From positions 74,329,558 through 74,393,557 of the forward strand of contig NC_134825.1 in assembly GCF_004210375.1 (NCBI RefSeq): a stretch of 64,000 bases of DNA, written 5' to 3'. Below, one piece after another: positions 6,411-63,257 of the stretch. The notes below the pieces were generated by a model, which saw only the letters and a list, made by a program, of their open reading frames with translations, searched no databases and was not told the DNA's origin. Source of the stretch: Tachypleus tridentatus. Its lineage: Eukaryota; Arthropoda; Merostomata; Xiphosura; Limulidae. The translations under genes and the position numbers were made by a program. The number at the start of each line of letters is the position of its first letter. Within the stretch, counting starts at the first letter, position 1.

Positions 6411-7002
6411 ACGTTTGCGATGCTTAAATATATTTTTATGATATAAAGCCTCATAAACGAAATGCCAGAAATAAACATATATGCTTCCCTAGATTCAAAT
6501 CATACCTTTGTTTTTATTTTTCAAGAACATCCGTTTCGTTTATTTATTTACTATACTATTAAGATATACTGATGTACAACTGGATTCCTTTTTCACATCC
6601 TCCAATAAGCAAGTTTACAGAATTACAAACTTAAAATCCGGGACTCAGTTCCCCATGCTTGACAGAATGCAATTCGTTTATTTGTAGCTTTGTGCTAAGA
6701 CTAGTAGAATCCTTTGTCGTGGCAAACGAAACTTGTAATGTTTAATTCTTTTACAACATGCAGTACAGACTGAAATATTCTGTGTTTATGAACACGTGTA
6801 TTCTCCTTTTATAAGCCTAATTTAATATATTTTTTATTTTCTTTATAGTACAGTTTCTTTGCATCTTTGAAATATTGTTATTAATTTAATTAGAATGACT
6901 GTACTTTCTAAAAGTGGTTGCTGTCGTTATAAATAAAAAAAAATATATTTCGCTTTGAGCATTCTTAAGTTGCTCTTAAAATGTATCTTTTCTGTTTGTT
7001 TG

Positions 7003-7228
7003 TTTGTTTTTGAATTTCGCACAAAGCTACTCGAGGGCTACCTGTGCTAGTCGTCCCTAATTTAGCAGTGTAAGACAAGAGGGAAGACAGCTAGTCATCA
7101 CCACCCACCGCCAACTCTTGGGCTACTCTTTTACCAACGAATAGTGGGATTGACCGTCACATTATAACGCCCCCACGGCTGAAAGGGCGAGCATGTTTGG
7201 TGCGACTTGGATTCGAACCACTGCAACA
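7003..7228 (-). repeat. SINE1 copy, 5' truncated
   Basis: Starts with the (GTTT)n tail complement, then hairpin, body and B box complement (GGATTCGAACC). The A-box half of the tRNA-like head is absent. Confidence 0.95.
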
Positions 7229-9049
7229 TGTTTCATCGAGAGATTATAACAGATAAAGTACAACACTCCTTTCTGTACACTTTCCGTAATCCATTCACTG
7301 TGAGAGAACAATAGTTTTCCAGCAACCACTTCAACAATCCGATAACGACTTTTTCAGAGTCCTATCATACCGAAATCCATTGGCTATGCGTGTGGCCGCA
7401 TCATCTGTATGCCTTCTTATGGAATAGCATGAATACCGGTTTAATTCTCCAGCTGGTTAATTGAAGTAAGTAATGGTTGAACGGGATGTATGGTTGGAAG
7501 CCTTATGGATCTGGTGCTGATGATGTTTCTTACCAGGTACTTTTGTTTATGGAGTCATTTAAATGTTCATCGTGATGACCGCAATAAGTAAAAAAGACAT
7601 TAATGACTTGATTGGTTGGCTCCAGGTGACGTCGTCAGTACTATTATCAGAAGCAAACACAGCTGTATGTAACAAAGAAAATTTATTGTGATTTTATAGT
7701 ATGTGGATGAAGAAGTACTACAAATAGAGAGGATTTTTCTGATATTGAAGTTCGGATGACTGTGAGTTCTATGTTCAGAGGGTTTACCTAAATATCTTTC
7801 TGAATGGTACACATGTTGTCCACAATTCACTAAGAGACGAGAGATGAGAATCATGCTTGAATGTCACACGAGTTATTACGAGATAAAAAGTTTCATTGAG
7901 TTCGATCAAGATCAAAGAATGTACTAGAGAAAAATTGTTATGTCCAGACTACAGAACATTTGCAAAGTCAACCAGAACTCAGATAATGGGTGTTGAGAGA
8001 TAGGGTACAAAAATACACCACTGCCTGATTGTGAATGGAAGAAATCATTTATGTTTCTGATGGGTTTGTTTATGTGGAATTAGGCACACAGCTACACAAT
8101 GAATTATCTTTGCCTTGCCCACCACGAGTATCGAAACCCGGGTTTTAGCAGTGTAAGTCCTCAGACATTCCGCTGTGCCACTGGAGGGTACCTCTGATGG
8201 GAAGGTAACAAAACATGGAACGAAGTTACTAATAACTAAAATGTTTAATAATTGTTTGGAGGTTTTCTTTTATTTTGTAACATATGCTAGTGATATGTAT
8301 GTTATTCTCTACTTAGTATGAAATGTTTGCAATTATTCCTAACCAAACGTCAGAAATTATCAAATAGTGTTTTGATATGTTTATTGTAAAATTAACTATG
8401 GTACATAAATATAAAACTAAAGAATGAATATAAATGTGTAGATGTTTCTTTTCTGTCGTTTGCTTTCTGTGTTATTTTTTAAAACAAAACTAATCATTAA
8501 CTTAATTTAATGGTCCTACAGAATTATATTTTAAGAATTTACTGTTTCGTTCCTGAGGTTATACAGTGAAGCTGTCATACATTATACATTCAAACTTATC
8601 TAAACCATGTCATACAAAATGGGTTCAATATCAGTAAAACAGAATTGTGTAGTGTGGTTGATTTCAAACCTTAATAAATAGACTATTAACTTTAACTTTT
8701 AGTATGGGAAATGTTTCATGATATAATTATACACATAAATATTCGTAAATGAAACTCGTTAGACGTCACTATTAACATGAGACCTAAATAACTGATGTAA
8801 CGCTTTATATAAGAGACCTATTAAAATTTGACAAACTTTGTCTATTGAACAATCAGGACAAAGTTAAGGAAAAATTAAACATATCAATTAAGATATATGT
8901 TAAAAGTTGTTTGAGTTGCTTTATAGAGTAACTACTGACTATGGAACACATGAAACAACTGTCAAACCTTCTAGAAAGCAATACGTAAATATAATTTTTT
9001 TATGCACAAGTAAATCAAACAAGATATTTGTTTGGTAAGAAAAAATTCT
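7229..9049. other. Intergenic sequence around a SINE2 copy
   Basis: Apart from the SINE2 at 8065-8192, no feature was recognised. Part of 7290-7860 is slightly less AT-rich but shows no convincing exon. Confidence 0.5.
8065..8192 (-). repeat. SINE2 copy with 9-bp target-site duplication
   Basis: A second SINE family of about 115-125 bp: on the minus strand a tRNA-like head (A-box region, B box GGGTTTCGATAC-type) is followed directly by the shared 3' tail. The flanks TCTGATGGG at 8056-8064 and 8193-8201 are identical. Confidence 0.9.
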
Positions 9050-9523
9050 CTAGACTAACCACAAGAACATATATGTAATGATACTGACGGACTACAAAAT
9101 CCTCTAGACTAACCACGAGAACATATATGTAATGATACTGACGGACTACAAAATCCTCTAGACTAACCACGAGAACATATATGTAATGATACTGACGGAC
9201 TACAAAATCCTCTAGACTAACCACAAGAACATATATGTAATGATACTGACGGACTACAAAATCCTCTAGACTAACCACAAGAACATATATGTAATGATAC
9301 TGACGGACTACAAAATCCTCTAGACTAACCACAAGAACATATATGCAATGATACTGACGGACTACAAAATCCTCTAGACTAACCACAAGAACATATATGT
9401 AATGATACTGACGGACTACAAAATCCTCTAGACTAACCACAAGAACATATATGTAATGATACTGACGGACTACAAAATCCTCTAGACTAACCACAAGAAC
9501 ATATATGTGATGATACTGATGAC
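9050..9523. repeat. 54-bp minisatellite, about 8.8 copies
   Basis: CTAGACTAACCAC starts at 9050, 9104, 9158, 9212, 9266, 9320, 9374, 9428 and 9482. Copies are almost identical; copies 2 and 3 share CACGAGAAC, and copy 6 has ATGCAATG. The unit length is divisible by 3, which creates a repetitive open frame of 18-residue units on the minus strand that I do not regard as a gene. Confidence 0.97.
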
Positions 9524-14006: not shown

Positions 14007-14911
14007 CAACTACCATAATATAATAATAATTTCATGTATCATTAATTACTAACTATTTAACTTTTCCCATGAATATGTTGAATAAAAATGATTAATTATT
14101 GGAAGATAAAAGAAGTGATTAAATTCTTTGTCAAGAGGTTATCGTTTGGTAATGAGAAAAATACAAGTAAGTTTGATTCGTTTATTTTTCTCGGAAAGTT
14201 CCGGATTTTATTTGCAATTTCTCGAAAGTTACGAACTATTAGTACAGTCATAACTACAGAAACTGAGACACCTACGAATATCACAAATATCAACCTGCAG
14301 GAGTGTTTAGAGGAATAAGCTTTTTAATAACCGTAAAACAACAAAACGTAAATTTATCAAGATGTTTAGAGTTTAATACATACTACATTAAACTGCCGAT
14401 AAAACTATCAATGTGACAGGCTACAAACCATATAATGAAGTTGTTTTTTTTCTTTTCTTCAACTTGCCTAAACATTGATGTTTTATCGCAGGCAAGTCTT
14501 CACAAGTAGGTTCCGTCTTGACTATCTTCAGTGGTAAATCTATCTATAAATTGCAGAAAATTAAAACAATTAACATTTTATGTTTATTTTGTGTTTAAGA
14601 TACATTTGTATCTTAACACAGTAAGTTACTTGGAGTCAGACAAATAAATCAATTACGTAGTAAAACTTAAATGTTTTGTATATAGTATTACCAATACACT
14701 AGATCAAATATTACAGTTTTAATGATACTCTGAATTGGTATTAAAGTTTTCTATGTAGGAACTGATCGTTATTGTTTGTTAAGTTTGTGAATAAGAAATA
14801 CACGACAGGCATAAAATAGATGTAGACGTGTAGATGAAGAAAGCAAAACCGGATTAACCCTTAAATGGCGGCCATCATCAATTACTGCTGCTACCTACAA
14901 CATTCCCGCTT

Positions 14912-15188
14912 GGCCCGGCATGGCCATGTGGGTTAAGGCATTCGACTTGTAATCTGAGGGTCGCGCGTTCGAATCCCCGTCACACCAAACATGCTCGCCC
15001 TTTCAGCCGTGAGGGCGTTATAATGTGACGGTCAATCCCACTATTCATTGGTAACAGAGTAGCCTAAGAGTTGGCGGTGGGTATTCATGACTAGCTGCCT
15101 TCCCTCTAGTCTTACACTGCTAAATTAGGGACGGCTAGCGCAGATAGCCTTCGTGTAGCTTTGCGTGAAATTCAAAAACAAACAAACA
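14912..15188 (+). repeat. SINE1 copy, full length
   Basis: Complete tRNA-derived SINE: GGCCCGGCATGGCCA head with A box, anticodon-loop region CTTGTAATC, B box GTTCGAATCCC, CACCAAAC, body, 3' hairpin and a (CAAA)n tail. Confidence 0.95.
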
Positions 15189-16789: not shown

Positions 16790-16879
16790 AACTATGGTTT
16801 AAAGATTTGACGCTAGTACCAGAAATACTCTCTCACTAAATCACTAACTAAATTACGATGCTTACGTTCAAAATAAAAT
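16790..16879 (-). repeat. Dispersed repeat R1, partial copy 3
   Basis: On the minus strand this reads ATTTTGAACGTAAGC, then AGTGAGAGAGTATTTCTGG and TACTAGCGTCAAATCTTTAA, matching the 5' part of the 3848 copy and its upstream ATTTTGAACGTAAG. It is cut at its upstream end by the SINE at 16880. Presence on both strands argues for a mobile repeat over a local duplication. Confidence 0.65.
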
Positions 16880-17158
16880 GGCCGTTCGTGGCCAGGTGGG
16901 TTAAGGAGTTCGACTCGTAATCTAAGGATCGCGGGTTCGAATCCCCGTCGTACCAAACATGCTCGTCCTTCCAGCCGTGGGGGAGTTATAATGTTACGGT
17001 CAATCCCACTATTCGTTGGTAAAAGAGTAGCTCAAGAGTTGGCAGTGGGTGGTGATGACTAGCTGCCTTCCATCTAGTCTTACACTGCTAAATTAGGGAC
17101 GGCTAGCGCAGATAGCCCTCGAGTAGCTTTGCGCGAAATTCAAAAACAAACAAACAAA
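16880..17158 (+). repeat. SINE1 copy, full length
   Basis: Full head (CTCGTAATC anticodon loop, GGTTCGAATCCCCGTCG), body, perfect outer hairpin stem GCGCA (17106-17110) with TGCGC (17130-17134), and (CAAA)n tail. It is inserted into the third copy of dispersed repeat R1. Confidence 0.96.
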
Positions 17159-17683: not shown

Positions 17684-17857
17684 TTACTTTCGCCGGAAAC
17701 AAGAAACAGCATTAAAATAACACCTCCAAAATTTATGTTCACCGCCCCGTCTTTGAAGTTCCATCTGGTCGCTGACTATTTCGTCTTCTCGCAGAGCTTT
17801 CTGAAGGGTGCTCATCAACTTATTTAACATGATCGTTGACCGTTTGGCTGCCACATC
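17684..17857 (-). CDS. AstCC: Allatostatin-CC precursor, terminal coding exon
   Basis: This exon encodes the C-terminal 57 residues of a neuropeptide precursor. It opens after a strong acceptor (pyrimidine-rich tract ending TTTCTCAG at 17865-17858) in phase 0 with DVAAKRSTIMLNKLM. It then carries an acidic helical spacer and a dibasic site (QRR), and ends with GGEHKFWRCYFNAVSCF, then RRK and a TAA stop. The CYFNAVSCF core with Cys-X6-Cys spacing is the signature of the allatostatin C family. Arg-Trp before the first Cys and the C-terminal RRK without an amidation Gly point to the double-C (AstCC) member. The predicted mature peptide is a 16-17 residue secreted, disulfide-looped hormone acting through somatostatin/AstC-type receptors (family knowledge). 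Its GC content is higher than that of the flanks. The exact N-terminus of the mature peptide is uncertain. Confidence 0.88.
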   Translation of the reverse strand, partial: DVAAKRSTIMLNKLMSTLQKALREDEIVSDQMELQRRGGEHKFWRCYFNAVSCFRRK

Positions 17858-18493
17858 CTGAGAAATAATAACATGAGTAGTGGATTTAAGAAAAAGAGTG
17901 ACAGTCATTTAATAATTAATGAAGATAGGTTGAAATAATATTTTGAGTGACTTACTACGATGCTTCATTGAGCGTGATTTCATAATTTTTAAATACGCCT
18001 ATCTTTCTTTTGGTCTAATTTTTGACGTCCATAACAATCATGTTACAGATATTTGTCAGCACTTTGAGTCTAACAAATTGATATAAGTAATAACATTATA
18101 AGCATTTGTTTATTTCTGAACCTGGTGATTTTGTATAAATCTAACAATACCCTAGAAAAATTTGTCAAATTTTTGAGTCCCGCTTTGATACTCAAATACA
18201 AAAATTAACTTTAGACATTTGTGAGTTCTCTAATCCTCGTTTTAATATTCAATTACAACCATTAACTGTAGGTATTTGTGAGTTCTTTGATCCTCGCTTT
18301 GATACTCAAATACAGCAATTTACTTTTAGCATTTGTCAGTTTTTTGAGCCTATCGATTTCATATCTACCACAAAAATCTTATGGAGATTTCTTATATATT
18401 TGAGACTCGCTTTGATTTTTTTTTTCCAAGATGATTTGATTCGATGGTCCTTTCATCTAATCGAATTTCTTCTTCTTTCCTTTTATACACTTA

Positions 18494-20117
18494 CAGTTAA
18501 GACAGAAAGTGTTCGTACCCCTGCGTCCAGAGTGGTTTTTTTGCTCCTAAATTAAAACGTTTCACGATTAGGCTAATAGAAGTAAAATATATTATAATTA
18601 TTATACTAACACACATCTACCTAACTTTGTATGTAAATTAAACAACAAATAAACTGTTTATAAACAAATAACCAAAAATAGGAGGAGCAGAAAGTGTTCG
18701 TACATTTCAGAACGTGGAGAAAAACTGATATTCCCGTAAAAATTTTGTTTAGTTTGGCGAATAAACTACATTATACCATTTCAGAACTAGACACTGGGTT
18801 CATAATTATTCGAATTTAGCCAGAAAAAATGTACTTCCGGCAATTTAGTGCCGTCTCCGTCATTATATGCTTGGTCATCATGGCGAACAGGAAACAACTG
18901 TCCAGTAATTTAAAAAATCAAATTATTGTAAAATACATGTCTCTTGTGTCTTTTTCTGGTATTGCTACACAACTTAATGTGCCAAAATCTACTGTTCAAA
19001 GTATAATTGCCAAGTTTAAGCTTACAGGATCAACTGCTAACCTCCCTCGTTCCGGACGCCCCATCAAAATTCCAGAGAGAACCAAGAGGAAGGTTCTCAG
19101 AAAAGTTAATAGGAACCCTCGTTTAACACGTAATGACATACAGAAACTGGTAAGGGAAACTGGGGTTGAAGTAAGCACCTCTGCAGTTACGAACATGTTA
19201 CACTCTTCTGGGTTCAAAGCATGCCGTCCTCGTAGAACTCCATATTTAAAGCCTGTTCATTTAGAAGCATGATTCAGGTATGCAAAAAAGCATGTAGATA
19301 AACCCTTTACATATTGGAAGAGTATTCTTTGGTCAGACGAGACTAAAATCGAGCTTTTCGGCCACAATGATGTTCGCAATATTTTCCGTAAGAAGGGGGA
19401 ACGAAATCTTCCAAAGAACACCGTCCCTACAGTTAAACACAGAGGTGGCTCGATCATGCTATAGGGTTCTTTCAGCTCTTCTGGTGTAGGCAGCCTTCAC
19501 CGCGTCAACGGAATCATGAGAAAAGAAAACTACGTTGATATATTAGGCACTTATATCAAGAATCATGCTCGAAACTTCTGGCTTGGGCGTCGTTGGATCT
19601 TCCAGCACGACAATGACCCTAAGCACACATCGAAATATGTGTAATCCTGGCTGCAGAGGAACCATATAAGCGTTCTAGAGTGGCCATCGCAGTCACCCGA
19701 TCTCAACCCAATTGAAAACGTTTGGTATTAGTTGAAGACCAGGGTTCATCAGCGTCATCCGAAAACTTGCAAGAGTTGGAGGCCTTCTGCAAAGAAGAAT
19801 GGAAGAAAATACCAGTCGAGTACTGTCAAACGATCATGGAGGGCTATGAGGAGAGATTGCGCCAAGTAATTCACCTGAAAGACTGCACAACTGACCTTTA
19901 AAGTTGACGCACTAACACTTTTTGCTCCTCCTATGTTTGGTTATTTGTTCATAAACAGTTTATTTGTTGTTTAATTTATATAAAAATTTATGTAGATGTG
20001 TGTTAGTATAATATTTATAATATACTTTACTTTCGTTATCCTAATCTTGATACCTTTTAAGTTATGAGGAAGACACTACTTATGACGCAGGGGTACGAAC
20101 ACTTTCTGTCGTAACTG
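18494..20117 (+). mobile_element. Tc1-type DNA transposon with IR/DR ends
   Basis: A 1,624-bp element bounded by TA dinucleotides (18492-18493, 20118-20119). Its terminal inverted repeats of about 210 bp both start CAGTTA(A/C)GACAGAAAGTG. Each inverted repeat carries an outer and an inner copy of CAGAAAGTGTTCGTAC: 18503-18518 and 18688-18703 on the left, 20093-20108 and a decayed copy at 19909-19924 on the right. This is the IR/DR arrangement known from Tc1 relatives such as Sleeping Beauty. It lies in the inferred AstCC intron. The transposase has stops, so the copy is inactive. Confidence 0.96.
18880..19901 (+). pseudogene. Tc1-type transposase, inactivated
   Basis: The frame starts MANRKQLSSNLKNQIIVKYM, with an upstream Met at 18829 also in frame. 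It has two helix-turn-helix parts, a GRPIKI-type AT-hook-like linker, and the catalytic DD34E domain: WSDETKIELFG (first Asp), HDNDPKHTS (second Asp) and SPDLNPIENVW (Glu). Four in-frame stops interrupt it at 19270, 19462, 19642 and 19729. A one-base frameshift lies near 19764, after which the C-terminal part is open to a TAA at 19899-19901. All catalytic residues remain visible, so decay is fairly recent. It would act as a cut-and-paste transposase on its IR/DR ends. Confidence 0.95.
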
Positions 20118-20819
20118 TATATAATACACAACTAAAACTCTTCTCTCTCTTCTATGTTAGATTTCTCTCTTCATCTTTCTGTGTCTTCCATTCATGATTA
20201 TCAGTCCATTTTCTCCATTGATTTCACGTAAGTATTTAATTCCTTTAGTTTCAGATTTCCCTTCTTTTTCTCTATCTATGAATATTTATATCATATTTCC
20301 CTCTTTCTAATTCTCTCGTAGTTTCTACTATTTACTTTCAACTGGTATTACATGGTGTCCAAGTATTTGTTCTGCGTTTTTTTTCCGTTTTTGATGAATT
20401 GTTATATATATATCATTAATGTTTTCCTTCTCTACAACATAATTCTAAATTTACAATTCATTTTTGTTTTGTTCCATTTTTTTTGTCGGTCTTTGAGAAG
20501 TAAACATTCGGTGGACATCTATCGAAGGTAGACTTTCTTTCGACCCACTTTAATATCCATCCAAGCTGTGAATTCAATTTCTTCTATACACTCTTCATTT
20601 TTATAGCTGCGGCATAATGGCTGATAGAATGATTCTGAGGTTTATTCAAGTACAGACTTCTAGCTCATAGCTCCTTCGTCTCTTGACAAATTTAAGATAT
20701 AATTACATTTTTTGGAGTTAGGAGGTGAGATCCTTTCGACTGATGTATTTAATCACGCTCAAAGTCTCCTATGTCAATTTACTCTAATTCTGCACAAAAT
20801 AATTTCATTTTTAGGGTAG

Positions 20820-21056
20820 TTTGTTTGTTTTTGAACGTCGCGCGAAACTACACAAGGGCTATCTGCGCTAGTCGTCTCTAACTTAGCAGTGTAAGACTAG
20901 TGGGAAGGCAGCCAGTCATCACCACCCACCACCAATTCTTGGGCTACTCTTTTACCAACGAATAATGGGATTGACCGTCACATTATAACGTCCCCACGGC
21001 TGAAAGTACGAGCATGTTTGGTGCGACGGGGACTCGAACCCGCATCTATCAGATTA
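20820..21056 (-). repeat. SINE1 copy, 5' truncated
   Basis: Tail, hairpin, body and B-box complement (GACTCGAACCCGC) are present; the first half of the head is missing. It lies within the inferred AstCC intron. Confidence 0.94.
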
Positions 21057-21667
21057 CATTTTCAGAGTAGACTGGTATAAATCCTGATAAGTAATAAAAT
21101 CGAACTGGTATATGAGCCTCACGCTTGGTATCGCTGGTGCATAAAAATATCTAATATATAAAGCTAAATCTGTGCCTCTTTGTTCGCAACTTTCAGCCAT
21201 CTTTTCCTTATATGTTTTGATAAAAGATAACACGAGGAAGGTCATGGATGGGTTGGGACTATATGACCCATTTTTTGTAAAAAATAAATGTAAGTATGTG
21301 TGTAGGTAAAAACACCATCGATAACAACCCTTATACGTCTACGCATATAGCCAATGTCTTTAGGTTTAGAATTCCCTGTTATACATTTTGCGATTTTCTT
21401 TTTATACTTCATGTCTGTAAATAAAAATTCCAAAGCTGGCTATTTTGTCTTTGAGGTTGTCATAAGTCTGTGTTGTGTAATATCTCACAAAAGAAAATGA
21501 CTTTTACGTACAGGTATATTGAGTAAACTGCTTTTGAAGTGAGTCGTCGCTAAACTGTATTCCGCATTTAAAAACAGAATTGTATTCTATGTATGGTGTA
21601 TTGAAATGTCTTTTACTAACACATTAATCTTTACACGAATTTCAAGGATGTGCAGCTTTGAAGCTAC

Positions 21668-21903
21668 TAATTTATTCTTGTGAATTGTTCATCCCCTTAA
21701 GCTGTTTAAAATAATAAAAATAAATACGATAGCCCCACATTATTCGATTTACCAATGGTCACTGAGTTTCTGATAAGAGGTGGAATTCTTTGAAATAGGT
21801 ATAACTAGGTAGCAAATAATAAACCGAATAATAGATGGGGCTTCACATTTTTTTAAATGTTCTGAACAGCTTGTTTGGCTGAATAATTCACAAGAATAAA
21901 TCG
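21668..21903. repeat. Fold-back (imperfect inverted repeat) element
   Basis: The left arm from TTTATTCTTGTGAATT (about 21670) through AGCCCCACATTATTCGAT matches the reverse complement of the right arm ending GAATAATTCACAAGAATAAA. Arms are roughly 90-100 bp with a spacer of about 40 bp and several indels. This looks like a MITE or palindromic repeat. Its exact termini and target duplication were not resolved. Confidence 0.65.
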
Positions 21904-22557
21904 TGTTCTTTAAAAGGTAATATAAGTTAATATTGTTATTCAACCAATCAAAGTTCATGCGTGTAGGAATAAGTAACTTAATGCACTCAGCATAAGGACA
22001 TTTATTGTTAACTTAACCCTGAGGGGTGTATGTTACCAAACGTCTTACAGCCTTTTCCATGAGATTAGATGCGATAACCGTCTTCTATTTGGACATCCAA
22101 CTGGTTTCTATACACATACCCTGTGAGCTACAGGATAAAATACTTTGAACATAGCATGGTAAAAACGAGTGCAACCATACATCAAAGTAGCTTGTTGACT
22201 TTTTCCGTTGTTCTGCTTTTATTTGACCTGAAAATGTTTCTGAATAAAATTAAAACACTCATATGTGTAATTATGTTATTGACCAAACATTAGAACTCAA
22301 GCTGAGCTGGGCGATAAATACTCTTGTTCTACAGCATTGACAAGGCGGTTGTGAATGAAAAATCTATTTGTAGAGCACGGGAGGTCTGAGTCTGGATGCC
22401 AAACCACTTAAAATTATTATTCATAAAAATTACGCAAATTATAAAAGATAACAACACAAATAAACACATCTATGTGGTTTTGAATCCGTTTACTGCACTA
22501 TATACTTCAGTTCTGGTGAAAAAGAAAAGAATATCAAACGTACAGTATTGTGTAAAA

Positions 22558-22784
22558 TGCTAGAAGGAAGTCAATGTTTAGGTTTCAGGCTACTTTCAAA
22601 GAACAATAAAAGTCAAAGTTTAGGTGTCAGGCTACTTTCAAAGAACAGTAAAAGTCAAAGTTTAGGTTTCAGGCTACTTTCAAAGAACAATAAAAGTCAA
22701 ATTTTAGGTTTAATGCTACTTTCAAAGAACAATAAAAGTCAAAGTTTAGATTTCAGGCTACTTTCAAAGAACAATAAAAGGTAA
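22558..22784 (+). repeat. 42-bp minisatellite, 5 copies
   Basis: AGGCTACTTTCAAAGAACAA, then TAAAAGTCAAAGTTTAGGTT and TC, is repeated with starts at 22587, 22629, 22671, 22713 and 22755. The unit is a multiple of three, so a 78-codon plus-strand frame stays open with 14-residue repeats (FRLLSKNNKSQSLG). It lies in the AstCC intron, antisense to it. I take it as noncoding. Confidence 0.92.
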
Positions 22785-22869
22785 ATCACAGATGAAACAT
22801 CAAAATTTTATTAATCTTTATATCTAGTACAACAGAAACTCAAAGGAAGTGTTTGAGTTCAGGAGTCAG

Positions 22870-23830
22870 TTAATATTTTGTGTGTTCCTTTTGTTTCGAT
22901 AACTGCAGACAATCTTTCAAACATTGATTCAACATAAAAACCAAAGTCTCTTTTAAGATTTTACTCTTAATGTCTGTAATACGTTCCCACAAAGTTTCTT
23001 TGGAAGTACCTTCTGATTTGTAAAGTTTTTGATCTGTCAAATACCAGATCTGCTCAATTATATTAAGATCGGGTATCTGTGGGGGCCATTGCATCATTTG
23101 AATGACTTCAACAGATTCTTTCTTAACTAAGTAATATCTTCATAGGTTGGGGATCTTTGTCTTGTTGTTAGTAAATCCTTTACCAATAACACACAAAAAC
23201 CATTTGGTTTTGTTTCATTATTATTAAGTGCAAAGCTACACAAAGGACTATCTGTGATCTGCCTACCACGGGTATCAAAACCCACTTTATAGTATTATAG
23301 TATCGCAAACATACTACTCAACATATCATGACGGATTAGTATCTGATGGCACTTGTGCTTGTCCATTATTCCTACCATTTTGCAAATATTTTCTGTTGAT
23401 TTAGCAGAAAAACATCCCTAAAACCCATCAAACTGCGTCCATCATGCTTCATAGCAGGTGCTATGCATTGAGTTAAGTATCTTTTACCTATCTTTTGCTC
23501 TACGTACAAAAGCTTTGAACCAAATATTCCAAACTTGGATTTATCCGTCCATAATACACTTTTACAATCATCAACAGTCTAGTTTTTGTACTTTTTTAGC
23601 TGCAAAAAGGCTGCAGAAACGAAGATACTTAAGATCAGGTGTTCTGTCTCTTCTTTTACTATTTATCTCAGTCTCAGTCTCACGATCTAGGCTGCACTTG
23701 ACAGTTTTGGGAAGCATTTCAAGTCTGCAGAAATTTGTCGAAGAGTCTAACCAGTATCACTTAGAGTTTTTACGTGAACTCTCTGCTCTTTTGACAATTA
23801 TCTACATGTCATGAGAACAAAACATAATAT
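22870..23830 (-). pseudogene. Decayed Tc1-like transposase with nested SINE
   Basis: The minus-strand C-terminal part (23097-22870) reads MMQWPPQIPDLNIIEQIWYL, the third catalytic region of Tc1 transposases, followed by the usual helical tail. Upstream fragments are recognisable despite frameshifts: KSKFEIFGSK-like near 23540-23510 and SLMGF-GCFSAKSTENI-like near 23430-23370. The SINE2 fragment at 23208-23300 interrupts it. Terminal inverted repeats were not found. It belongs to a different Tc1 lineage from the 18494 element, judging by its sequence. Confidence 0.82.
23208..23300 (-). repeat. SINE2 fragment inside a Tc1 remnant
   Basis: TTAAGTGCAAAGCTACACAA, then CTATCTGTGATCTGCCTACC and ACGGGTATCAAAACCC match SINE2. 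It interrupts the transposase remnant at 22870-23830 and so is younger than that element. Confidence 0.82.
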
Positions 23831-24540
23831 GTTGCGTTAAACACTGTTTTTGTGAAGGTTTATTTGTGGATTGCTACAAATTTGATTTATTCTTGCGTAT
23901 ACCGCAACCGTATGCTTGCTACTTTTTATATTGTCAAAACACTGCATGGTTTACCATGACAGTTATTTTAGAACCTAAATATGATCAGTGTGTTCATCAA
24001 AGCAGAACCTTTATGACGTATCCTTGTTACAAGTTTATGGGAATTCTTAAGAATAATAAGTAGTGTCATCTTAGCTCATTGAATTGTCAACTAGGATCAG
24101 TGAAGCATTACCGTAGTGTTGAAATTTATATTCTGTAATGGCATTGAAAAATTAGCTCTGTAAAATGAAAAGAATAACAGAATATTTTCTTGTCCTAGCA
24201 CTTTTGCACTATACTGTACATATACGTACAAATATAACAGTTAACATTAGAACTCACCACCTCAAGTAAAATCACAACTAATTTGATGTATTGTTTAATG
24301 ATATCAGATATCAACTTTATTATCATCACCATTTCTTTTGGATTAGTATATCATGGAGTAGTTTATAAAAAGCTCCTAGTCGGTTAAGGACTTAATTTAA
24401 ATATAAGTTAGAGTAATATTTTTTTTTCCGAATAGTGGTTAAGTTTACGTCGCGAACTTGTAGGCCTATAATTCATATTAGAGTTAGATAATCCGAGCAA
24501 TAACTGAGCTAAAAATTTATAATAGACAAACATGACGGTT

Positions 24541-24650
24541 GTTGCTGTTTTAGCACAAATCTACATAACAGGCTCTGTCCTCTGCAGGGAATCGAATTCT
24601 GTATCTTAGCATAGTAGTTCAAAACTTACCACTGATCCATTGAGGGACAA
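24541..24650 (-). repeat. SINE2/SINE3-like copy, diverged
   Basis: TTTTAGCACAAATCTACATA, then GGGAATCGAATTCTGTATCT and CCACTGATCCATTGAGGG follow the tRNA-derived head and tail in reverse order with much divergence. Confidence 0.65.
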
Positions 24651-24689
24651 ACGTGATGAATAAGACTTCATAAAGTAGTTAAGAATTAA

Positions 24690-24817
24690 CACTCCTACGA
24701 AAAGTGGGGCCTAATAGGCCCCAGAGCAACTTGAAAGGTTATTAATATTAGGCTAATAATTTTGTATTTAAATGAAATTGCCATTTAAATCCATTAATGA
24801 ATGGATTAACGAGATTT

Positions 24818-24854
<37 letters not shown>

Positions 24855-24905
24855 GGGGAACGGGCTTGGAGAAATCAGGAGTAGAAACGTCTTTTCGTAG
24901 GAGTG
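24690..24905. mobile_element. piggyBac-like MITE, 216 bp
   Basis: Perfect terminal inverted repeats CACTCCTACGAAAAG (24690-24704) and CTTTTCGTAGGAGTG (24891-24905) are flanked on both sides by TTAA (24686-24689 and 24906-24909), the target and duplication typical of piggyBac elements. Inside are palindromes (GGGGCCTAATAGGCCCC; TTTAAATCCATTAATGAATG) but no coding sequence. It is a non-autonomous element in the AstCC intron. Confidence 0.88.
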
Positions 24906-26601
24906 TTAACATTGTATTGTTACCTGTTGTAAAAATATTGTTATACAGTGGTTGCATATAAAATTAGTATAATATATAAATACGAAGTTCAAACTTCTCA
25001 AAGACTTAGTTCTCAGGTAATTATTAGAGATTTAGTCTGTACGTGTTAACAATGATATAGAAACAAGTTTCTGTGGTAAAAATGAACTAGCAACAATGAG
25101 AAAACGTGGCGACTATGTAACGTAAAATTACAAAATTTTGAATTATCAATTTCAATTTAATTTAAGAAATATTTTTCATAATCCAGAAACAGAATATAAG
25201 TTATTTTTATACTGTTAACATTTAAACGATACATTAAAATGCAGTGTTTCCACTAAACTTAAAAACTGAGTTAAAATAATTATATATCACACGGATTAAA
25301 TTAACAATCAACGCAAATTAATTAATGAAAAACTTTTGCACAAACGCTTTGGGTGTTCAAAGCTTTTTCAAAACTGTGAAAGCTTTAGCTGTTTCTTCTG
25401 GTATATAATATTATTAATGTACCTTCAAATACATTACCCTAACCAAGTAATTAATATAATATGTTCTGAAGTAATCAAAGTTTCTCCGTTTTGAATTAAA
25501 ATAAGAATGTAGATCGTTGCGAAGTGGTTATTTAAGTGGAAAACAAAACTACTCAAACACTCAAGCGATTTCAGAGCGTTCTATAACCATCAGCTCTTTT
25601 AAACTTTAATATCATGATGTTCTTTACTGATACTATAAAGTATATTAAAACTAAAGGGCACTTAGCAGAGCGCATACCTCCACCATGCAGTGTTGATCAT
25701 ATTCGACCCCTGAAAAATATATCTTATGTTCGTCGTTATTAATGGATAAGGACTATTTTTGATAGAACGACGAGGAATATTTTCTACATATTTTTACCAA
25801 ATTTCATCAAAATCCGATCATTTTTGACTGAGTTATAGATCAAAGCGACTGTAAAAAATCTGACCTCATGTTAACAGTTGGGGATTTTTTTTATCTTCTC
25901 GACCTGGCTTTCAACTTGACCCTCAAAAACTAATTACTTCTGAGTTGAGTCATAGTACAAATATATACTACCTTTAGCCAATATCCATTCAACTGCTTTG
26001 GAGAAATATTGTTGATAAAGATGCAAAGAAATAAAAACACACACACACGGCGAGTGAAAACACAGTATGGTAATGCAAAAACTGTATTAACATCGCATTG
26101 TAAAAAAATGCAGTTTATATATAGTATGCAAATAACTGAAGGTGTCATTAATGGATATGATGTTTCTAGTAAATCGAAAAAAAATGTTTACTCTCGTAAC
26201 ACATACATTTTTACTATTTTTGGCCACTTCAATCAGAGAACTTCGACAAGTCCCTCAGTGGATCAATAGTAAATTTACAAATGTACAACGTAAAAATCCG
26301 AAGTTTGATTCTCCGGGTGATCGAGTATAGATAAAAACAACAATATCTTCATGAAGATATTTCTACTCAGTAAATACTTGAGTCGATATCTTTAATAAAA
26401 ATATTCATATTTATTGAGAATGTTTAACAAAAGGACAAGCTTAAGGAGCCTACAATAAGCTAGTTTCAGAAAATGTCTTTCCTAAACATGAACATGAAGA
26501 CTACGGGTTGGAATATAAAATGACAAAACATTTTTGCTATTAGCAAACATTTATAACAGATGTAAGAAAAATTAGTCTAAACTCATATGGTTGTAACTTA
26601 C

Positions 26602-26727
26602 TTTCAGCAAGAGAGACTTGAGATCTAGCCCTTGATTGGTTGGGTATGGATGTGCTAACTCAAGAAGAAAACTTGTGACAAACATGCCAACAATGAAACT
26701 TGTAACAAACCTTGGAGTAGCCACCAT
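26602..26727 (-). CDS. AstCC: Allatostatin-CC precursor, signal-peptide exon
   Basis: This exon has 42 codons, starting at an ATG with A at -3 and G at +4 and ending exactly at a consensus donor (AAA|GTAAGT, intron from 26601). The protein begins MVATPRFVTSFIVGMFVTSF, a hydrophobic signal sequence, continues LLELA and then HPYPTNQGLDLKSLLLK, a short pro-region. The donor is phase 0, matching the phase-0 acceptor of the exon at 17857 on the same strand. Joining the two gives a 99-residue precursor, a normal size for AstCC. The link between exons is inferred from phase, strand and precursor layout. An intermediate exon in the 8.7 kb intron cannot be excluded. Alone, the exon is not family-specific. 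Confidence 0.66.
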
Positions 26728-27095
26728 TGTCTTAGACTGTCTTAGCTGAGTTGGATAACAGTAACGTACAAAGAGAAAGTAATTGTCAAAGTACCTGATC
26801 TCTTTGGATTCGTGTTACTGGTTAGAATAAACTGTGAGTCTCTGAACAAACAAACTGATTTTTGTATCTGCGACCTCTCGTGACAACGTGGGAAGAAGGC
26901 AGGCGTTACTCAGCTGGCCAATCAACAGGTTGTAAGAGAGGAAGGAAGCTTGCTTCACTTGGATGATGGTCGTAGAAAGGCTTCGCGCTGTTTGTAATGT
27001 AATCAAGTATTTTAAGAAGTCACTCAGTATGAAATACTTAAACGTTAATATTAAAATTATGACTACACACTCAAAGAAAGTTCTCGTCACATCCA

Positions 27096-27199: not shown

Positions 27200-30118
27200 T
27201 TTTTCACAAACAGTAAAATATAACTATAAACTTTCGGAAAGACCTCGTAAATTTTGCCAAGTTTTAAGCTGTTAGTATTCACTTATCTCAAGAAATAATA
27301 ATTCTGATCTATCATTGTAATATGTCGTAACCATTAAACTTTCGGACAAAGGAAGGATTTAAACTTCATATAAGTATACGAGAAAAAAATCTTCTGATAT
27401 TATACTATTTATATTATACTGTAAAAATTCACCAGATTTAGTAGGAGAGACTTATTGCATTATAACACACACACACACAACTATATATACATCATGATAG
27501 AAGTCTACGAATTTATTGGGTTTTGTTAAAATGTCAAGTGTTATTTTTTTGTCATCGTACACACGATAGGAGTAACAAGTTACGCCAGTAACATTTGAAA
27601 AATACTTCATTGACTGTGAAAAATGTTTATTCCTTCACATTTCATTACGACATTCTGTTTGTACATCAAACTAATTCTCAATGAACATGATATTAAAAAA
27701 ATTGTGTATATTATTTTATTTTACTTGTATAAAAAACAAAACTCAAAGTTTAATTTAAAATATATGAAACTGTAGTAACAATATAAAAACATTAATAAAA
27801 TTCGTATAAAAATAAATAATCTTGTTTAGAGGTTCGTCAACTTAATTCAACATACATACGGATTAATATATTGTTTTTACTGCGAAATGATCACACTTTT
27901 TTTATAAAATGACCTGTGGTGATTATTTTGTAATTTGATTGTATAAAAACGTACAGTTGGAAACTTTAAAGTTCCAAGTCAGTGGTCAACTATGTTATCT
28001 ACTGTTATTTAACTGAAGAGATAAGAGGATTTTATCAGTTTGAAAGCTGAATACTTTAGTCATGCAGAATTTAATCCAAATATTTTCTTCGTTTTGATTG
28101 GTTCGAAAAGACGTTGTGAATTTAAATCTCATAGTGTTAAAAAATAAGTATTGTTTAGCGACTAACGAAATCATTATCATAAAGCGTGTATACTTATTAG
28201 TGTGCTTATTAAAGGTTTCGTCAGAATAACTGAACAACACAGGTGCAAATGATTTATAACACCTCGAATGTTTTACTAAGTCTGAAGTTTATACATGGTA
28301 TATCCACAGAAGCAGTAGACTTGCATTTAGTCATAAAAGGACTGATAGAGACCGTATTTTGTCTTATTTTATTTACTTACCACATTTTCTCAACGAACGT
28401 AGTTTTTCTATTGATAAAGGTTTTGTATTCTGATTCGATGGTTATTTTAAACTAAGCCACATTTAGCTATCTTCTGTACACATCGTAAACACCGGATTTT
28501 AGCGTTATGATACCGTAAAATTAGGGACCTATTTGGACAACGTTTCTTAGAGAGACGATGAATGAGATCATTTGGATGAGTTGCTAATTTTTGCTTAAAA
28601 TCAACTGTATAATTTTCATTAATTTCTCCTTTTCAACATATCTCGTTATTCCGCACAACACAAAGATTAACTTATAACAAATGAAAGGAGAGATGTATAA
28701 CGTTGCCATTGGCCAATTTAAAAAATATGTTTTTTTCATTACAAGGAACTTCAAATATGCAACTAATGCAACTTCAAATATCAGAAATAAAAAACAGTAG
28801 CTTACAAATTAACGAAAATTATTCTGTAGGACAAGTTGACTAGAATTATGTACATAATGCACTAAGAAACTCTAATCTATAATGATTAGATTGCATTGCA
28901 TCATTAACAGTTAATAGTTTTCGCCGTAATTTCGATAACATGTGGTGATGTTTGGTCAACCTACGAACTTTTTAGTCTACTAAATCTGGTAAAAATATGA
29001 AATAAACCTCGTAAAGTACAATTTTGGTTAAAACTGTGTTTGCAACAATTTTATGATTATTAACAGAAACGTATTACTTGCTTCTTATTTAGATCCACAC
29101 AGCTTAACAGTGCACAAATGATGTATATTTTTACAACCGTAAAAGTATTAGTAACAGTACATATCCAAACATTAAAACTGACGGAATTTACAAAATAAAA
29201 AAAAACAACAACAAGCAAAACAATCTTCAATTAGACGAACGAGCTTTCTGTAACTCGTAGTTAGTTTTGCACAGTTTAAAAAAACAACAGTTCATTAAGA
29301 ATCATAAGATTTCAAGACTAAACTCTTAGGCGAAACGAAGTATTTTGTTCCTGCAAACATTTCACTCTCAGTGTGACAACGTTAGCATTTCTTAAGACTT
29401 ATGACTTAAGTATATAACAGACGTCCCCTAGTGACTCCGCGGACAGAGCTCAGAAACCCCATATGAGACTTTGCTCCTCGTAAGCATAATGAAATAGGAA
29501 TATCTGACTAAATTCTTAAAATCTTCATGAATAATTAAAAATTGTCTCTTTAAAGTATTTTCTTTTTCAGTAATAATATGAATTCAATAATAATTTAAAC
29601 GTTTTCTTTCTTTTCATATTGTTGACAGAGATGAAAATTGACGTCTTTAAACTTTTACAAAAAATGTTTTAAGAGATTTAAACCATTAGAAGGTGAGATT
29701 AGCTTCTATAACATCCTGTTGTCAAGCATCAAATGGCTGAGTGCCAAACAGGCGTGGGATAAATATGATTTTGTCGATTCTATTGTTTAAATATATTATT
29801 CCCAAATTTGCGCAATTGATATATTTCTATCACAGGAAGAATTGAATATTAATTTAAAAAAAAACATTTATAGAGTTCAACAATTTTACTAGTCATGCGC
29901 AGTATGATTACCATTATGTAATAAACAATCTCATTGGCGATGAGCTTGTATATATTCTAACTATAAATATTGTTCTAATAATTTTAGCTTAAACCAGTTC
30001 ATAGTAATTATAGAAAAATAATTTTTGCTTCTTTCTAGGCTACAAAGAAAGATATTTGTAAATTTTATTGAGATAAGGCGTATCTGTTGCGATTAATAGT
30101 TATAATAAAGTGTCTTGC
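27200..30118. other. AT-rich sequence upstream of AstCC, little recognised
   Basis: Holds an (AC)n run near 27463-27478 and a weak SINE3-like fragment. A minus-strand donor-like GTG|GTAAGTAAA near 28381 has no convincing exon before it. The AstCC promoter is presumably at the left edge of this stretch or just inside the 26728-27200 region. Confidence 0.45.
28446..28525 (-). repeat. Possible SINE3 fragment
   Basis: AAGCCACATTTAGCTATCTT and CCGGATTTTAGCGTTATGAT resemble SINE3 in order and spacing, but identity is low. Confidence 0.4.
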
Positions 30119-42542: not shown

Positions 42543-42822
42543 TGGTTTGTTTGTTTGTTTTGAATTTCGCATAAAGATACACGAGGGCTATCTGCGTTAG
42601 CCGTCCCTACTTTAGCAGGGTAAGACTAGAGGAAAGGCAGGTAGTCATCACCACCAACCGCCAACTCTTGGACTATTCTTTTACCAACGAATAGTGGGAT
42701 TGACCATAACTTTATAACGCCAAAACGGCTGAAAGGGCGAGCATGTTTGGTGTGACGGGTATTCGAACCTGCAACCCTTGGATTACGAGTCGAGTGCCTT
42801 AACTACTTGGCCATGCCAGGCC
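42543..42822 (-). repeat. SINE1 copy, full length
   Basis: A complete minus-strand copy with a long (GTTT)n tail complement, ending CCATGCCAGGCC. It abuts the start of the jockey-like LINE at about 42826. Confidence 0.95.
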
Positions 42823-42825
42823 ACA

Positions 42826-44165
42826 GACTGTGACAAAGAGTATCACCTGTCTCAGTGTATAAAGGACCATTAACAACCAAAATACTGTAATTGCAGCGTA
42901 GAACACATTTACAAGGACTAAATAAAATACAAAGATATCTCAAAACACCCATATAGAACTTTATAAACAACACAAAACAAAACCTCTGGGGAAGACGAAA
43001 TACAACCTGTCCTCAAATAAAGCACTCAGCTACTATTTGATCACTTAATAGCGCTATTCGATTTATCACTAAAATGAGGATACGTCCTTGTCTCTTAGAA
43101 GGAAACTAATATTCTAATATTCCGTAAGGAGAGAAAACTAGCAGTTAAACCTGATAGCAACTGCCCATTCAGCCTTACCAGCTGTATATGTAAAATATTA
43201 GAACGTATAACCAGAAAAAGATTATCAACCTACGTAGAAATTACATCGAAATTACCTGAAATACAAAACGGATTCAGACAATCCAAGCAAACAGTAGACC
43301 ATCTGGTTATATTAACGACATGGAGAAAGCATTTGACACTGTATGACACAATGGTCTCAGGTTCCGTATGTCGGAAATAGAACTATTGCGTGATATTATT
43401 CGGTGGCTGCCTATCTTACTGGAAGACAGAAAATGTAGAGTAAATATGAAAGGCTCCTAATCAGAGTATTTTACTCTCGTTAACTCTGTACTTTTCATTA
43501 TATATGTCAGCAGTATACCCCTAAAAGACCTCACAATTCGTGGATGATGTGGCAGTCTGAAAGAGCTCTCCAACTCTATAAATAGCAGCTACAAATCTAC
43601 AGCCTTAACTAAACAAATTATAAGAACAAGAGTACATATACCAAAGATACAGTTACTACGTTTTATAAAATCAAACAAAACCTAAAAACGTCCACCAACA
43701 ATTTACCATTAGGGACCTCCTTTCTAATTTGCTGCGTTTGCAAAAGTTCCTGGTTTGATATATGACTCTAAATTAGCCTGAACAAAACACATCAATGAAA
43801 TGACAAACAGACTGACTAGATTCTTTAATTATATCAACTAATATCAAAGACATATCTGCAAAAATATCCTGAAAATATATACTACATACATCAGTCCAGT
43901 ATTAGAATATGTTAGTTAGTCATATCTAGTTTAATGTGTCTCTTACTCAGATAACAAGAAAATAATAAAATATATAAAAGAAAATTTTAACAGCAGCATT
44001 CCAAGCTCCAAAGATACAAATATCAGCTATATATCTGACAGACTCCTACAGAATATTGTGAAATATTTCCAGAAAAATCTGTGTAAAAATGGCCTACTGT
44101 GCGGAATAGGCAGATATTGCATACGTGATGGAAATATATCTAAGTGTTTCTTCCAACTAAAAACT
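42826..44165 (+). pseudogene. Jockey-like non-LTR retrotransposon remnant
   Basis: The reverse transcriptase is recognisable in pieces: EDEIQPVL (near 42995), SLTSCICKILERITRKRLST (43165-43230), IQNGFRQSKQTVDHLV (43262-43310), a shifted DMEKAFDTV block (43317-43342), and the catalytic FVDD box (43537-43548). A C-terminal block follows with NISYISDRLLQNIVKYFQKN (near 44020-44080). The left part resembles a decayed zinc-knuckle ORF1 end (near 42830-42930) joined to the reverse transcriptase without an endonuclease domain. Many stops and shifts. No RNase H was seen, which suits the jockey group. Confidence 0.85.
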
Positions 44166-48300: not shown

Positions 48301-48348
48301 ATATATATTGACGGGACTGAACAATGAATGATGTACATGCAGGAATAT

Positions 48349-48625
48349 TGTTTGTTTTGTTTTGAATTTCGCGCAAAACAACACGAGGACTATCTGTGCT
48401 AGCCGTCCTTAATTTAGCAGTGTAAGACTAGAGGGAAGGCAGCTAGTCATCACCACCCACCGCCAACTCTTGAGCTACTCTTTTACTAACGAATAGTGGG
48501 ATTGACAGTAACTTTATAACGCTACTACGGCTGAAAGGGCGAGCATGTTTGGTGCGACGGGGATTCAAACCTGCGACTCACGGATTACGAGTCGAGTGCC
48601 TTAACCACCTGGCCATGCCAGGTTG
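48349..48625 (-). repeat. SINE1 copy with perfect 11-bp target-site duplication
   Basis: A complete minus-strand copy bounded by TGCAGGAATAT at 48338-48348 and 48626-48636. It sits just past the 41-bp degenerate array. Confidence 0.96.
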
Positions 48626-51801: not shown

Positions 51802-51819
51802 GTCACATTTTTGACAGTA

Positions 51820-51927
51820 ATGTTCAAAATGAAAGTGCTTGTCTTATTGGCTTGTCTTATGCTGGCTGTATGTTCCGCCAAAAGTCTAAGAGAATCGGTA
51901 CAAGAATTCTATCCTACTGATCTTGAT
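51820..51927 (+). CDS. Secreted protein, signal-peptide exon (unidentified)
   Basis: The exon follows an excellent acceptor (T-rich tract, then CTTTACAG at 51794-51801) and an 18-base leader. It encodes 36 residues: MFKMKVLVLLACLMLAVCSA is a classic signal peptide with predicted cleavage after CSA, and KSLRESVQEFYPTDLD begins the mature or pro-region. It ends at a phase-0 donor, GAT|GTGAGT. A second in-frame Met at residue 4 could be the true start. Together with the TATA-like box and the exon 1 donor, this is the start of a small secreted product such as a neuropeptide, antimicrobial peptide or other hemolymph protein. I do not recognise the family. Later exons lie in or beyond the following 12 kb. 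Confidence 0.72.
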
Positions 51928-55689: not shown

Positions 55690-56677
55690 CGATTGAGGGC
55701 AGTCTAAAGTTGTCACTCAGTAATGTGAAAGTTGTCGAAATAAAGCCTGTTTGACAGTAGATTTAAGTTGTGCAATGATGGAATTAATCTTCACACTGAA
55801 AAGTGCGACAGTCAAGATACAGCCCTTAGGGACTCCAAGTTCCTGTGGAAAAGAACAAGAAAGTGTCGAGCCCACACGGACTTCGAATCGCTGGTTCATT
55901 AAAAAGTTTTGGATAAAAGTGAGTAAATGACCATGTAGGCCATATGAGCGGAGGTCTCGCAAAATGCAGTATCTCCATGTAGTATCGTAGGCCTTCTATA
56001 GATCAAAGAATGTGGAAAGAAAATGTTGTTGCTTGAGAAAGGCTTCTCTGAGCAACATTTCAAGTCGAATCAGATGATCCACGGTGGAGCACTGTCTGTC
56101 GTCGGAACCCACGCTGGGTGGGCGAGAGGAAGTTGTTTGATTCAAGGAACCAAAGAAGACGAGCATTAACAATTCTCTCTAAGATCTTACAGAGACAGCT
56201 TATCAAAGCAATTGGACGATAGTTAGAAGGAATCTTGGAACCTCTCCCAGGCTTAAATAAAGAGAGGATAATATCCCGACCCCAAGCATCAGAAAATACA
56301 TTATCCTGCTAGTTTTGGTTAAAAACAATCAGAAGAATAGCAAGAAAATCAAGAGGAAGTTGACTCAGCACCTCGTAGTGAATATCATGAGGCCCAACTG
56401 ATGTACTGCCAGATCGATGAAGAGCAAGCTTGAGTTCTTCTCTAGTAAAAGGGCGCTCATAGTAATAGAAACGATTGGTTTAAAAGGAAAGGTGAGAGAT
56501 GAAATAGAAGTGCTTGGTGCACGAGAAATCGTTTACAGAGATTATCAGCGTTACCTGGGCACCAACAATTTCCTAGCTACTAGAGAACAAGATTGAATGA
56601 TAGGAATCAGTCAAGGCCTTAATGCCACCCAGATTATAATGGAAACTTTGACAATTCTACTGTATCACTGTGGCCAT
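55690..56677 (-). pseudogene. LINE ORF2: endonuclease stub and reverse transcriptase remnant
   Basis: ORF2 begins at the ATG 56677 with MATVIQ, a stop, then NC, the usual start of the AP-type endonuclease. After about 30 residues the sequence jumps to the linker before the reverse transcriptase, so the endonuclease is deleted. The reverse transcriptase shows KIPSNYRPIALISCLCKILE (around 56250-56190), a GFRR block near 56115, ESLRSYGLHGHL-like sequence at 55962-55920 and GVPKGCIL near 55830. The YADD region is degraded. Several stops and shifts. Confidence 0.82.
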
Positions 56678-62978: not shown

Positions 62979-63257
62979 GGGCCCGGCCTGGCCAGGTGGT
63001 TAAGGTGTTCCACTCGTAATCCGAGGGTCGCGGGTTCGAATCCCGGTCGCACCAAACATGCTCGCCTTTTTAGCCGTGGGGGCGTTATAATGTGACGGTC
63101 AGTCCCACTATTTGTTGGCAAAAGAGTTGGCGGTGGGTGGTGATGACTAGCTGCCTTCCCTTTAGTCTTACACTGCTAAATTAGGGACGGCTAGCGCTGA
63201 TAGCCCTCGAGTAGCTTTGCGCGAAATTAAAAAAAAAACTAACAAAAAAACAAAACG
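62979..63257 (+). repeat. SINE1 copy, best preserved, with TSD
   Basis: Near-consensus head (CTCGTAATCCGAGGGTCGCG, GGTTCGAATCCCGGTCGCACC). The flanks AATAAAGAAAC (62968-62978) and AATAAAGAGAC (63258-63268) are an 11-bp duplication with one mismatch. The tail is A-rich with AAC interruptions. A 20-base body deletion removes the AGTAGCCCA segment. Confidence 0.96.

Follow-up and report, generated by a model that had tools for sequence, protein, structure and literature searches.

Do two open frames that lie 8.7 kb apart on the minus strand of a horseshoe crab contig, with repeat-rich DNA between them, belong to a single neuropeptide gene? The frames are contained in a 64,000-nucleotide stretch of the Tachypleus tridentatus genome (assembly GCF_004210375.1, contig NC_134825.1, here C1; positions C1:74329558-74393557), which we call the window; coordinates without a contig name are window positions. 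Our analysis indicates, with a probability of roughly 0.95, that 26727-26602 and 17857-17684 constitute one protein-coding gene, encoding the 99-residue prepropeptide of horseshoe crab allatostatin-CC (AST-CC). We adopt this two-exon model because the open exons join in phase 0, two paralogues have an equal structure, the ratio of nonsynonymous to synonymous substitution rates (dN/dS) is below 1, the AST-CC core is framed by RR and by RRK with a stop codon, and genes for allatostatin-C (AST-C) and allatostatin-CCC (AST-CCC) are its neighbours. Elsewhere the genome carries exons of the coagulogen family (19 of 28 candidates matched), which were not seen in any of 14 control genomes. One of these exons agrees with the solved coagulogen 1aoc of T. 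tridentatus at all 48 aligned residues; another does so at 48 of 51, its three differences falling among the first five residues, where the translation may begin ahead of the exon. Published sources are cited by PMC number.

Gene structure and peptide class

Coding exon 2 (17684-17857, minus strand) holds a spacer, a predicted RR cleavage site, the predicted mature peptide, RRK and the stop codon. Its translation, DVAAKRSTIMLNKLMSTLQKALREDEIVSDQMELQRRGGEHKFWRCYFNAVSCFRRK followed by the stop, is preceded in the DNA by ...TTATTATTTCTCAG, in which a pyrimidine-rich stretch leads to the AG of the acceptor, and its C-terminal end runs QRR, GGEHKFWRCYFNAVSCF, RRK, stop. Coding exon 1 (26602-26727, minus strand) translates as MVATPRFVTSFIVGMFVTSFLLELAHPYPTNQGLDLKSLLLK, comprising the start codon, a hydrophobic, putatively secretory leader and the first residues of the pro-region; GTAAGT follows directly, giving the donor AAA/GTAAGT, and the exons of the paralogues match in place and donor. 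Both junctions are in phase 0, and the joined precursor has 99 residues. The intervening phase-0 intron (17858-26601, minus strand; 8,744 bp) is full of repeats and about 29 times as long as the coding sequence. The gene model has a phase-0 intron in its N-terminal part, as do the paralogues, and lacks the second intron of the fly and worm AST-C type; an N-terminal phase-0 intron is a trait common to somatostatin (SS)/AST-C genes (PMC7536072).

The mature peptide predicted from exon 2, GGEHKFWRCYFNAVSCF (17696-17746, minus strand), would be a free acid with one disulfide, the cleavage, trimming and disulfide being assigned by the rules of the family. The core [Y/F]WRCYFNAV[S/T]CF is present with its two cysteines, and its first place is F where known forms have Y. 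Over 12 residues, the core is identical to AST-CC of Homarus and Lysmata at 11 of 12 positions, to polyneopteran AST-CC at 10, to Homarus AST-CCC at 8 and to Homarus AST-C at 7. The best six-frame match to the 12-residue AST-CC core reached 11/12 in the window versus 5-7/12 in each of 20 first-order Markov surrogates, which bears out the original prediction that this exon encodes an AST-CC hormone followed by RRK and a stop. Moreover, exon 2 was matched by all four motif patterns in a six-frame scan of the window; the only other match (27462-27491) came from the loosest pattern, in a frame interrupted by stops.

The layout of the precursor agrees with that of its relatives. The peptide is C-terminal, with RR before it and a cleavage site after it (QRR/GGEHKF...CF/RRK-stop), and a C-terminal peptide preceded by RR and left unamidated is the rule for AST-CC in polyneopterans (PMC7179676). 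The polyneopteran peptides differ from that of the horseshoe crab, which has S for T and F for Y in the core and 17 residues versus mostly 19 (PMC7179676). Decapod AST-CC peptides (Homarus AST-C III and Lysmata AST-CC) share with it the 11-residue identity WRCYFNAVSCF, the two cysteines and the free-acid C-terminus, whereas their N-terminal GNGDGRLY or GNNNDGRLY is replaced by GGEHKF in the horseshoe crab. Vertebrate somatostatin genes likewise have an N-terminal phase-0 intron and a C-terminal disulfide peptide (PMC7536072); their core, in contrast, is of the FWK type, and somatostatin is considered paralogous, not orthologous, to AST-C (PMC8851493).

That the peptide is AST-CCC or AST-C rather than AST-CC has a probability close to nil. 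A C.FN..SCF core is common to all three classes, and in the AST-CCC gene of the same cluster, too, a phase-0 intron separates the leader exon from the peptide exon. However, the last Phe is followed by RRK without Gly, hence there is neither a C-terminal amidation site nor an AST-CCC-like amide; AST-CCC peptides are of the amidated SYWKQCAFNAVSCF type, that of this cluster reading KQCAFNAVSCF and then GRK, and their core identity stops at the 8/12 given above. NAVSCF stands where AST-C, including that of the cluster, ends in NPISCF, and distinct AST-C and AST-CCC genes flank the AST-CC gene on both sides. A Pfam scan of the joined precursor returned no family even at an E-value of 10, a search of solved structures with exon 2 gave three weak, seemingly unrelated matches (best E 0.011), and among 22 stretches that fit a pattern in a scan of viral contigs none was confirmed as a relative.

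Pairing of the two exons

Judged on the window's sequence by itself, exon 1 is one among several possible leaders, and genome comparison decides better. With the cut-off for donors set at 2.5, a scan of the minus strand upstream of exon 2 gave six phase-0 ATG frames at three different donors; the proposed donor, at 3.65, is within the top 1.1% of 3,734 minus-strand GT sites. An earlier scan with a 4-bit threshold had missed this donor, and the lower value was chosen in view of its score of 3.65, so that the rerun is no independent test. Donor weights and hydropathy cut-offs were set from general knowledge.

Searching the genome with the precursor, we recovered two more AST-CC peptide exons, both on contig C10; we call the window gene copy A and these paralogues B and C. 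Four of the six candidates matched, namely the three peptide exons and the window's exon 1. Our genome searches score the best candidates only, and remoter copies may escape, so that copy counts are lower bounds. Each paralogous exon 2 is accompanied by an exon 1 homologue on the same strand, at C10:79350475-79350350 in B (42 residues, 43% identical, E 1e-7) and at C10:188079232-188079116 in C (39 residues from the ATG, E 0.018); each E-value applies to one 70-kb stretch, in which the homologue was the top match. Exons 1 and 2 are 13.4 kb apart in B and 14.1 kb apart in C (introns of 13,407 and 14,146 bp, versus 8,744 bp in A), with exon order, strand and phase as in A, and the phase-0 donor AAA/GTAAGT is identical in all three copies. 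In paralogue C, RH replaces RR.

Substitution patterns were consistent with a conserved protein. For the joined frame, dN/dS was 0.16 (A-B), 0.25 (A-C) and 0.27 (B-C); for exon 2 the values were 0.10, 0.10 and 0.12. With differences of 0.5-0.7 at synonymous sites in these comparisons, dS is large and a rough estimate. After repeat filtering, the DNA that A shares in place with B comprised exon 2 and exon 1 together with about 215 bp upstream of it (match 26594-26942), and that shared with C comprised exon 2 only; with one set of filters, the intron held no unique DNA in common place with the two paralogous introns. MAFFT aligned the block upstream of exon 1 across all three copies, including C, for which BLAST gave no match. 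This block (26856-26942, minus strand), lying inside the A-B match, is likely the proximal promoter with the 5' leader. Collectively, the comparison supports the exon pairing through two paralogues of equal two-exon structure and joined dN/dS values below 1, and it upholds the proposal that a leader exon about 8.7 kb upstream on the same strand supplies the matching phase-0 donor.

Several observations weigh against this model. The donor has A at position -1, and its score of 3.65 is below the 6.23 of another phase-0 candidate, 24332-24258. The leader of exon 1 is hydrophobic, yet the three cleavage points that a loose and simple -3/-1 rule permits, behind residues 14, 19 and 27, are all imperfect. 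For exon 1 alone, dN/dS was 0.25 between A and B and reached 0.63 in both comparisons with C (A-C and B-C). The exon 1 match in C is weak by itself (E 0.018, the next match having 0.58), although its place, strand, phase and donor make up for this. When exon 1 and the flank upstream of it were searched against the DNA of the whole genome, the window's own copy alone came up (one of one candidate), indicating either divergence beyond the reach of the tool or an upstream block less conserved than the alignment implies. Similarly, a whole-genome protein search gave no exon 1 except the window's among the best candidates scored. Finally, the precursor has 99 residues versus 108-172 in Polyneoptera (PMC7179676).

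These points bear on two further explanations. If exon 2 were genuine and spliced to another leader, for example 24332-24258 or one outside the window, then 26727-26602 would be a chance open frame; the six phase-0 ATG frames at three donors, one of them stronger than the proposed donor, leave room for such an arrangement. Nevertheless, exon 1 homologues with the same donor lie upstream of both paralogous exon 2s, and the DNA in common with B takes in exon 1 and its upstream flank, which makes a different leader highly improbable. A slightly better case, still a very unlikely one, can be made for gene A as a decaying, unexpressed paralogue, one of three, given that three AST-CC loci were found, that its intron is full of repeats and that its leader has diverged. 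Yet A has lost neither its open frame and splice sites nor RR, the cysteines and RRK, dN/dS is below 1, and the intron of A is the shortest of the three. The two-exon AST-CC gene therefore remains our reading of the locus.

Intron repeats and the allatostatin cluster

The repeats in the intron look like ordinary passengers. A Tc1/mariner-type element (18492-20119, plus strand) extends from terminal inverted repeat to terminal inverted repeat (each 210 bp; 86.7% alike) and is bounded by TA on either side. Its transposase frame spans the element and is broken by four internal in-frame stops; uninterrupted frames characterize autonomous Tc1 elements, and this one therefore encodes no intact transposase. 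The original description of a complete Tc1 thus holds for the outline of the element and fails for its coding frame. Also within the intron are a copy of the window's abundant repeat resembling a short interspersed element (SINE; 20809-21058), tandem arrays with units of 42 bp (22568-22780) and 57 bp (18160-18351), a self-complementary (foldback) repeat or palindrome of 232 bp (21670-21901) and a possible DDE transposase fragment (22873-23139, minus strand; Pfam DDE_3, E 0.0043, 17.3 bits, below the curated cut-off of 28.6). The earlier count of at least six repeats is reached if that weak fragment is included. Since the paralogous introns are longer still (13,407 and 14,146 bp), introns of such size are the norm at these loci, and the presentation of this layout as unusual was overstated.

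Elsewhere in the window, the SINE-like repeat (about 220-300 bp) occurs in 17 full or partial copies per 64 kb in both orientations, for example at 6988-7219, 14911-15188, 16879-17158, 42545-42823, 48348-48622 and 62980-63246. A 54-bp tandem array (9042-9519; 8.9 copies, 98% matches) has one minus-strand frame that is open for 159 residues. Reverse transcriptase fragments (Pfam RVT_1) were detected at 43099-43377 (plus), 55720-55995 (minus) and 56063-56308 (minus), the last alone passing the curated cut-off. Scans of the window with Rfam at the gathering threshold and with ARAGORN found nothing.

The original prediction had overlooked the neighbouring AST-C and AST-CCC genes. An AST-C peptide exon lies 9.6 kb to the left of the window (C1:74319943-74319996, plus strand), and others lie at C10:79306941 (plus) and C10:188040115 (plus), with NPISCFRKR in each. 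All six candidates of the AST-C query matched, three being AST-C (E <1e-3) and three cross-matches to AST-CC (E 0.5-1). No AST-C leader exon was found in any of the three clusters when the DNA ahead of the peptide exon was scanned by a simple procedure. On the right, the AST-CCC leader exon falls inside the window (51802-51927, plus strand; ATG at 51820, an AG acceptor ahead and a phase-0 donor behind), where it surfaced in a control scan, and the peptide exon (C1:74394498-74394665) follows roughly 1 kb beyond the right end of the window. The AST-CCC query identified at least six peptide exons (six of six candidates), including C1:74394606, C10:79397021 and C10:188129603, all on the plus strand.

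Homologues of the AST-CCC leader lie at C10:79393177-79393284 and C10:188125003-188125110, respectively 3.7 and 4.5 kb ahead of their peptide exons; two of the five candidates of the genome query with this leader matched, and the third leader came from tblastn on one genomic stretch. The joined AST-CCC precursors of the three clusters aligned without gaps. Two of the three copies have an AG 16-18 bases before the leader ATG, compatible with an untranslated first exon like that described for a beetle AST-CCC gene (PMC6585902). Three further AST-CCC copies were read within 3-kb loci on C6, C7 and C11. Over 3 kb, the copy on C11 shares 98.4% identity with the C10 copy near 188.13 Mb, pointing to either a recent duplicate or a haplotype left uncollapsed.

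On this evidence from gene order and sequence, AST-C, AST-CC and AST-CCC are adjacent sister genes, and the cluster is present three times in the genome. Local triplication is reportedly the topic of a 2016 paper by Veenstra. From the large synonymous divergence and the literature, we infer that the copies of the cluster were made by whole-genome duplication. Two of the clusters share contig C10, 109 Mb apart, so that whole-genome duplication would need a later fusion; otherwise their origin would be segmental.

Predicted processing and significance

By analogy with known family members, we infer the following course for horseshoe crab AST-CC. Transcription would start from the conserved block just 5' of exon 1, the 8.7-kb intron would be spliced out, and the precursor would enter the secretory path. 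A convertase would cut at RR and behind the peptide, after Phe, with trimming of the basic residues (RRK); one disulfide would join both cysteines, and the peptide would be released as an unamidated free acid. It would act at a G-protein-coupled receptor of the somatostatin/AST-C type, mostly as a modulator or inhibitor. Carcinus AST-CC activates an AST-C-type receptor (PMC11959706), and the lobster heart is modulated by all three peptides (PMC6008092). For Limulus, PMC6736302 cites the record of an AST-C receptor.

Entry into the secretory path may take a particular form in copy A. Within exon 1 residues 20-27, a Pro in A replaces the small residue before the likely cleavage point of B, which has ALS at the matching position of its leader. 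The leader of A may be retained as a membrane anchor. The AST-CC forms of flies and of a termite have a signal anchor and that of a locust a classical signal peptide, and a local role has been proposed (PMC4237046).

A published figure showing where AST-C-type peptides occur includes Limulus (PMC8851493). Two papers on horseshoe crab genomes do not mention allatostatin in their main texts, and the literature naming T. tridentatus together with allatostatin included no title on this subject, subscription papers being mostly beyond reach.

The AST-CC gene is ordinary but real, and the most interesting part is the linked triplet kept three times. The analysis provides gene models from leader to stop for AST-CC and AST-CCC in a chelicerate whose genome has been duplicated repeatedly. 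It also illustrates that comparing paralogues suffices, in place of transcripts, to join the exons of a short peptide gene whose intron is about 29 times as long as its coding sequence. That one animal retains the arthropod triplet in three linked sets raises the questions of what expression each copy has kept and whether the genes stay together through common regulation.

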